Origin: Candidatus Uhrbacteria bacterium
Lineage (GTDB): Bacteria; Patescibacteriota; Patescibacteriia; 2-12-FULL-60-25
Length of the DNA: 64,000 nt
Direction of reading: 5' to 3'
Assembly (NCBI GenBank): GCA_018499965.2
Contig: JAHBAS020000006.1
Location: 1 to 64,000, forward strand
Of the stretch, positions 55,762 through 58,166 are shown piece after piece (the stretch's first letter is position 1; every line of letters starts with the position of its first letter). The notes beneath the pieces were generated by a model, which had not been told where the DNA came from, made no database searches, and saw nothing but the letters and a program-made list of their open reading frames with translations. A program made the position numbers and the translations under genes.

Positions 55762-56919
55762 TTACGATCGGAGATTCATGGTATCGGCGGCAAAAACGAC
55801 TCTGCCGTTATCGATGACGACGGCTTTGCGTCCACCGTCCTCTTCGACCCGTCCGGCTTTCCAGGCTCGTATACAGTGTTTCTCGGCGTAGTTGATAATT
55901 TCTTCCGTGAAATCCGGATCCACGTATAACGCGAATCCGGCGCCCATGTTGTACGTACCCCACATTTCCTGTTCTTCGACCGGACCCATTCGTTGGATAA
56001 AGTCGAAAACCGGTTGTGGTTCCGGAAGCATGTCGATGTGATACACGAACGGCCGCTTGGCGCGCATGAGTTTGCGCCACCCGTGTCCCGTGATGTTCAC
56101 GGCGTAGTTGATGATGATCCCAACGTCTTGCAAGGCTTTGATGATCGGGGAGTAGAGTATCGTCGGAGCGACGAGCGCTTCGCCGAATTCTTTTCCGTCG
56201 CTGAGCAGTGTGTTGTATCCGTCTGGAAGTTTTGGAATGATGTCCTTCCAGATCATCGTGATACCGTTGGCATGCAACCCAGAGCTTTCGAAAAGCACGA
56301 TGTCATCTCCGTCCTAGATACGACTTTCGCGAATCACGTCTTCCGGAGATCGGATTACGCCTGAGGCGGAACCACTCAAGAGCACTTCCCCTGGTGTAAT
56401 GATGCGTTTGAGCGTCGGTGTTTCTCCGCCGCCCCATACGCACTCGGTTATGTCGCATGCATGGCTCCATCCTTTGAGGATTTCCATCCATTTCTGTTCG
56501 TTCTCGAACCAGTCGCTTGACCCTACGGCCAAGTGCATGGCGCATACGAGCGGAAGCGCGCCGGTGGTCAAGAGATCGTTGACGCACATGGCGAAGTTAT
56601 CGATGGAGATGTTGAAGTGCGGCCTGACCGTGTCGGAAGATGGATGATAGTCGTCCGCGATCACGGATTTCGTTCCCAACCCTTCGTTCACGTCCGCGAG
56701 GTAGGCGAATTTTGCCGGATCCACGACGCGCATCACGTACGCGCTTTCGCCGCGGCTCCACGGCTCTTCTTGAAATCCGTACTGCAAGCAGTACGAAGCT
56801 GTTAGTCCGGCGAGTCGTTGTGCAGCGATCTTGAAAGGATCCATCACGTCGTAGTTCACGCCGGATCCTTGGTAGGTGATGAATGTTCCAGGGACAGATT
56901 CCGTTGTCGATTCTTGCAT
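55762..56919 (-). pseudogene. purM: phosphoribosylformylglycinamidine cyclo-ligase interrupted by an in-frame TAG
   Basis: 56314-56919 (YQGSGVNYDVMDPFKIAAQRLA...VWGGGETPTL) and 55762-56298 (VLFESSGLHANG...NITGHGWRKLMRAK...GTYNMGAGFALYV) are in the same frame, separated only by TAG at 56314-56316. Confidence 0.85.
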
Positions 56920-57049
56920 GATGTTCCTCCTGTGTTCTTCTTTTGTGATCCATCGAATCGGCGAATCCGATTCGGCGACTCGACGGAGTTCCGTGAAGTC
57001 GCGTGTACTATACAGAGAACAGGAAAAAAATCAAGCCTGAAACAACAAA

Positions 57050-57074
57050 ACCTCCGGGTGTATCCCGGAGGTTT
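57050..57074. terminator. terminator-like hairpin
   Basis: aaacctccggg-tgtat-cccggaggttt. Confidence 0.6.
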
Positions 57075-57080
57075 CTGTGA

Positions 57081-57167
57081 TGGTGGGCAAGGAGAGAATC
57101 GAACTCTCATGAGGTTGCCCCCGCAGGATTTTGAGTCCTGTGCGTCTACCAATTCCGCCACTCGCCC
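57081..57167 (-). tRNA. tRNA-Leu(CAA)
   Basis: GGGCGAGUGGCGGAAUUGGUAGACGCACAGGACUCAAAAUCCUGCGGGGGCAACCUCAUGAGAGUUCGAUUCUCUCCUUGCCCACCA; long variable arm, encoded CCA. Confidence 0.95.
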
Positions 57168-57383
57168 GTGTGAGTCGCTAATAGCCTGTAGCTAGTAGCT
57201 GGTATGAGGAACAACGTCTAAATGACGACCAAAACAATACACGGTTTTAATAGCCTCGTCAATCAACGAAAAACGCGGAAAAAAGTGACCTACGGACTCA
57301 CGGACCTACGATCCTGCGGACCTGTAGCTGTGGGCAATCAGGCCTTGAACAAAGGCCTCCGACAGGCGTATGATACTCGGGTT

Positions 57384-58166
57384 ATGGGACGAATTATCTC
57401 TGTGGTCAACCAGAAGGGTGGCGTGGGCAAAACGACCACGGCGATCAACCTAGGTGCCTATCTCGCAGAGGCGGGAAAGTTCGTCCTTATCGTGGATTTG
57501 GATCCGCAGGCCAATGCCACTTCCGGCATCGGCGTTGATTTTCAAACCATCGAACGCGGCGTGTACGAGGCGGTGCTTGGGGATGTGAGCATGAAAGAAA
57601 TCGTGCAGCCGACGGCGCACGATACGCTCCGTATCGCTCCGGCTACTCCGGCGCTCGCGGGCTTGAACGTGGAACTCGTGCCGATGGAGCGTCGCGAACA
57701 TCGATTGCGAGATTCGTTGCTGGAAATCCGTCATGACTACGATTATATTTTGATTGACTGTCCACCAACGCTCGGATTGATCACGTTGAATGGTATTGTT
57801 GCCGCAGACGAAGTGTTGATTCCGGTCCAGGCGGAATATTTTGCGCTTGAAGGTTTGGGTCAATTGCTCGAAACCGTGAATCTCGTGAAAGACCGCATCC
57901 GTCCAGAGGTAAATATTCTTGGTGCGGTCCTTACGATGTACGACGGCCGCACGAAACTTTCGGAAGACGTGCTTCAAGAACTCTACAAGTATTTCCCGAA
58001 TAACATTTTCCGATCCGTGGTCCCTCGGAGCGTGCGTTTGGCGGAGGCTCCGTCATTCGGCCGATCCATCGCGGCATTCGATCGATTCTCAAAGGGCGCC
58101 AAAGCGTACGAGCGTTTAGCTCGCGAAATTATCGAAACAGAAATCAATCACATCAAAGCGGTATGA
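57384..58166 (+). CDS. parA: chromosome partitioning ATPase ParA
   Basis: MGRIISVVNQKGGVGKTTTAINLGAYLAEAGKFVLIVDLDPQANATSGIG. Confidence 0.95.
   Translation: MGRIISVVNQKGGVGKTTTAINLGAYLAEAGKFVLIVDLDPQANATSGIGVDFQTIERGVYEAVLGDVSMKEIVQPTAHDTLRIAPATPALAGLNVELVPMERREHRLRDSLLEIRHDYDYILIDCPPTLGLITLNGIVAADEVLIPVQAEYFALEGLGQLLETVNLVKDRIRPEVNILGAVLTMYDGRTKLSEDVLQELYKYFPNNIFRSVVPRSVRLAEAPSFGRSIAAFDRFSKGAKAYERLAREIIETEINHIKAV

Follow-up and report, generated by a model that had tools for sequence, protein, structure and literature searches.

A divergent purM interrupted by a single in-frame amber codon in a Candidatus Uhrbacteria draft genome

The interrupted purM frame

The window analysed here is a stretch of 64,000 nucleotides from the Candidatus Uhrbacteria assembly GCA_018499965.2 (hereafter G000). 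Its minus strand carries a PurM-like frame with the following features.

55762..56919, minus strand: PurM-like (AIR synthetase family) frame, interrupted; 386 codons, ATG at 56919, ending with TAA
56926..56931, minus strand: AGGAGG, Shine-Dalgarno-like, upstream of ATG 56919 (read directly)
56314..56919, minus strand: N-terminal open frame, 201 aa, PF00586 AIRS (Pfam match)
56314..56316, minus strand: in-frame amber codon TAG, codon 202; Gln, Arg or Lys in most relatives
56307..56310, minus strand: GGAG, Shine-Dalgarno (SD)-like, 8 nt before GTG 56298, inside codons of the common GD segment (read directly)
55762..56298, minus strand: C-terminal open frame with restart at GTG 56298, 178 aa, PF02769 AIRS_C (Pfam match)

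Translation of the frame at 55762-56919 revealed the TAG at codon 202 as the sole lesion, without a frameshift or second stop. This agrees with an earlier inspection of the DNA (the sequence-only reading), which had described purM as split by one in-frame TAG at 56314-56316 with coding sequence on both sides. The AIRS domain of the N half and the AIRS_C domain of the C half both exceed their Pfam cut-offs, and the TAG stands between them; in the read-through frame, the AIRS match extends to residue 188 and the AIRS_C match begins at residue 202. The purM gene of G000 has one feature of a nonsense pseudogene, a premature stop in a frame that homologues keep open. The residue at the TAG site is, as the same reading had stated, an ordinary one in other AIR synthetases: among about 115 homologues it is Q in 47, R in 23, K in 21, and another residue in the remainder. 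Gln codons lead at this site (CAA in 26 and CAG in 21). From a Gln or Lys codon, one substitution suffices to produce TAG.

Genomes and searches

G000 is a Patescibacteria (CPR) draft of 1.11 Mb in 46 contigs and is 94.4% complete. Of its 1,114,431 bases, 1,111,313 were searched; 5.6% of the genome lies outside the assembly. G001, G002, and G003 are genus-mates of G000, and G009 belongs to the same family. Completeness is 99% for G009, 88% for G002, and 82% for G011. A scan of viral contigs for the purM stop site gave no match. A literature search found no paper in which phosphoribosylformylglycinamidine cyclo-ligase is mentioned together with the candidate phyla radiation.

A divergent PurM without detected pathway partners

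The read-through frame was compared with the purM equivalog TIGR00878, for which the curated cut-off is 236.35 bits. It scored 169.4 bits, under the cut-off, as did the intact purM-like genes of relatives (all 12 others; best 195 bits). Since all relatives found score under this cut-off, they are considered a divergent PurM clade. The G000 protein shares 29% identity with E. coli PurM across residues 52-345. Like PurM (TIGR00878; PF00586 and PF02769), it has both domains in the same order, and its clade relatives lie near purL, purF, purD, or purN in several genomes. Unlike PurM, it falls under the TIGR00878 cut-off, is interrupted by TAG, and resides in a genome without the other pathway enzymes. 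The divergent clade is common to Patescibacteria, Opitutaceae, Phycisphaerae and other Planctomycetota, and Armatimonadetes, and its members are near purF or purL in several cases.

FGAM synthetase (PurL) produces the substrate of PurM. In the 94% complete assembly of G000, tblastn with E. coli queries detected none of PurL, PurD, PurC, PurE, PurK, PurB, and PurA; the PurF- and PurN-like matches were weak and partial, and a profile search for PurL gave no match. The same queries do recover PurL, PurF, and PurD beside purM of the same clade in other genomes, which indicates that the tblastn method works. With the partner enzymes undetected, the PurM substrate is not produced via a known route. 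A stand-alone frame of about 200 aa resembling the N-terminal part of PurH (IMP cyclohydrolase-like) was observed at G000:C44:8082-8486, with no transformylase domain downstream in frame.

Thirteen relatives bear purM. The eight that also have PurL show no stops; the five without PurL (G000, G002, G009, G011, and G041) include two. This association between a purM stop and the absence of PurL is suggestive only (Fisher P of about 0.13, computed by hand and based on two stops).

Distribution, neighborhood, and a second stop

PurM-like genes were found in 13 of the 58 relatives; within the order, 8 of 41 genomes have one. Two of the three genus-mates lack purM; in the third, G002, the gene is on another contig at another location. 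Next to the G000 gene are two conserved neighbors.

57081..57167, minus strand: tRNA-Leu(CAA), conserved neighbor; the slot beyond it holds purM in G000 and other contents in genus-mates
57222..58166, plus strand: parA, conserved backbone gene adjoining tRNA-Leu in 4 of 4 genus genomes

Synteny around TypA is not conserved with the genus-mates, and parA was used as the anchor instead. In G001 and G003, the slot beyond tRNA-Leu(CAA) contains tRNA-Met genes together with unrelated frames; in G002, it contains a different frame. Across the four genus genomes, this variable slot by tRNA-Leu(CAA)/parAB (55762-57167 in the window; L238-L240) resembles an insertion site. Identity between G000 and G002 is 48% for purM, compared with 74% for TypA and 84% for ParA; plain vertical descent is thus not apparent. 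The gene looks accessory, and its presence does not seem a matter of simple inheritance within the genus.

Among 117 homologous loci checked, some of which are duplicates of one gene, an in-frame stop occurs in two: that of G000 and that of G009. The G009 purM (L003 1501-2646; G009:C4:7411-8556) is interrupted by an independent in-frame TAA and is otherwise intact. The TAA replaces the Glu of the nearly invariant GGGETP motif, where 112 of the 113 other sequences read have GAA or GAG. Degradation of a homologue in a related genome, which the sequence-only reading had named as a finding that would count against its proposal, was thus seen in G009.

Constraint and age of the stop

About 3.6% of random substitutions in the purM frame create a stop. 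Under a neutral model, the probability of finding no stop besides the TAG is 0.13 when divergence is 5% and falls to 0.016 when it is 10%, which argues for a recent TAG if the gene is neutral. The G000 purM branch is long, the third of 96, and both halves are equally long; the C/N branch-length ratio is 0.98, and the family median is 1.04. Four of the 63 positions that at least 95% of relatives conserve are changed in G000, two of them conservatively. A functional two-part protein, or an assembly error, would equally be expected to show preserved residues and equal rates in both halves. Branch length, half ratio, and conserved-site changes fail to separate a young pseudogene from its rivals. 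Relaxation of the N half versus the C half was uninformative as a test because both halves of a dead gene would relax. UDP-galactopyranose mutase, tried as a control for the background of in-frame stops, was likewise uninformative because nearly all matches were partial.

Alternative readings of the amber codon

Insertion of an amino acid at the TAG, through a suppressor tRNA or programmed readthrough, would yield full-length PurM. The frame is open on either side of the codon, and a suppressor tRNA could sit in the unassembled 5.6%, where at least the tRNA-Asp gene, not found in the G000 assembly, presumably also falls. Against this, TAG is a normal stop elsewhere, as previously noted: it terminates 331 of the 975 ORFs of at least 100 aa in G000, including pheS, which ends with TAG directly before pheT in the same frame. 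ARAGORN reported 42 tRNAs and a tmRNA in the 94% complete assembly, and the CUA anticodon, for which a search had been advised, is found in none of the 42; a permissive search pairing a CUA anticodon loop with a T-loop turned up a single site, itself unconvincing, and PylS is absent from G000. Pfam was used to scan ten in-frame TAG junctions whose flanks look coding. At five, the TAG clearly separates two genes (PheS/PheT, for example); the remainder have a Pfam match on one side only or none, and those with no family match are uninformative. Among the nine junctions tested other than that of purM, no gene cut by its TAG was seen. In-frame TAA and TGA junctions likewise gave no split genes, their families falling in separate genes or on one side only. 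No significant RNA structure was found downstream of the purM TAG (z -1.16). Normal TAG use, the lack of a CUA tRNA and of PylS in the assembly, and the junction scan led us to reject global or local reassignment of TAG. Expression by readthrough, one of the options raised earlier, is thus poorly supported, and we regard it as the least likely of the readings, with hardly any chance of being correct.

The two halves might instead be made as two polypeptides, with termination at the TAG, a restart at GTG 56298, and assembly of AIRS and AIRS_C as a split enzyme. The stop does fall at the domain boundary (188/202), the GTG is 15 nt past the stop with GGAG 8 nt upstream, and constraint is equal on the N and C halves. 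However, none of the 117 homologous loci is split at this point, and the GGAG lies inside the codons of the GD segment, so that coding accounts for the motif. SD-like motifs stand before 14% of naive starts and 12% of internal control positions and are therefore common by chance. The GTG restart would also lose the DGDDI stretch, in which G204 is invariant across the alignment, and PurL, the maker of the substrate, is absent. For the earlier suggestion of two polypeptides, with a start at 56298, the domain-boundary stop and the GGAG before the GTG stand; against it are the unsplit homologues and the coding role of the GGAG. We judge such a restart improbable. A heteromeric PurM split at AIRS/AIRS_C, made by termination and restart on one mRNA and acting on scavenged substrate, is more improbable still. 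It is also unlikely, to a lesser degree, that the gene is intact in the organism and that the TAG in the metagenome-assembled genome (MAG) reflects either an error of sequencing or consensus calling or a polymorphism at minority or strain level. The draft state of the assembly, in 46 contigs, and a single substitution as the only lesion between otherwise well-preserved halves are consistent with an error or polymorphism, but the gene context makes loss expected. The rarity of single-base consensus errors in well-covered assemblies also counts against an error. The sequence-only reading had paired a very recent nonsense mutation with an assembly error; the evidence favors this pair, with the mutation as its probable member and the error or polymorphism as the unlikely one.

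Probable loss of a stranded purM

The TAG probably arose recently, as a nonsense mutation in a purM of the divergent clade that was stranded and dispensable. The gene would have belonged to the accessory genes, sitting beside tRNA-Leu. Loss of the other pathway enzymes probably came first, leaving the PurM substrate unmade. Because the partner enzymes are missing and the substrate is not made by a known route, constraint on purM was probably weak already before the stop arose. One nonsense change at a non-conserved site, for example Gln CAG to TAG, would then have inactivated the gene, and the TAG would represent an early step in its loss. The G000 purM resembles the nonsense pseudogenes of reduced bacterial genomes in having one in-frame stop in an intact frame, in its accessory status, and in its missing partners; it differs in that its recency and loss of function are deduced from sequence.

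If the nonsense mutation is correctly recognized, the locus is a snapshot of pathway erosion in Patescibacteria, in which purM briefly outlasts PurL and then gains a nonsense mutation, and such a mutation arose apparently twice, independently, in one family. The G000 stop is most likely an ordinary event of modest interest as pathway erosion, and it offers a minor test of the order in which genes are lost. Its main use is for annotation, where it cautions that the presence of purM does not equal purine synthesis.

Additional observations

Methylation-driven C-to-T change at CCAGG, given an ancestral CAG, was considered as the source of the substitution; the search found no dcm-family C5-methyltransferase, and this origin is not supported. 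ARAGORN predicted a tRNA-Ser(AGA) of 74 nt at G000:C15:55289-55362, which lacks a long variable arm and carries a mismatch in the acceptor; it has one distant match only in 40 other genomes of the order and may be decayed or foreign. CTAG is strongly depleted in G000 (550 observed versus about 4323 from base composition), and GATC is over-represented (10045 observed versus about 4323).
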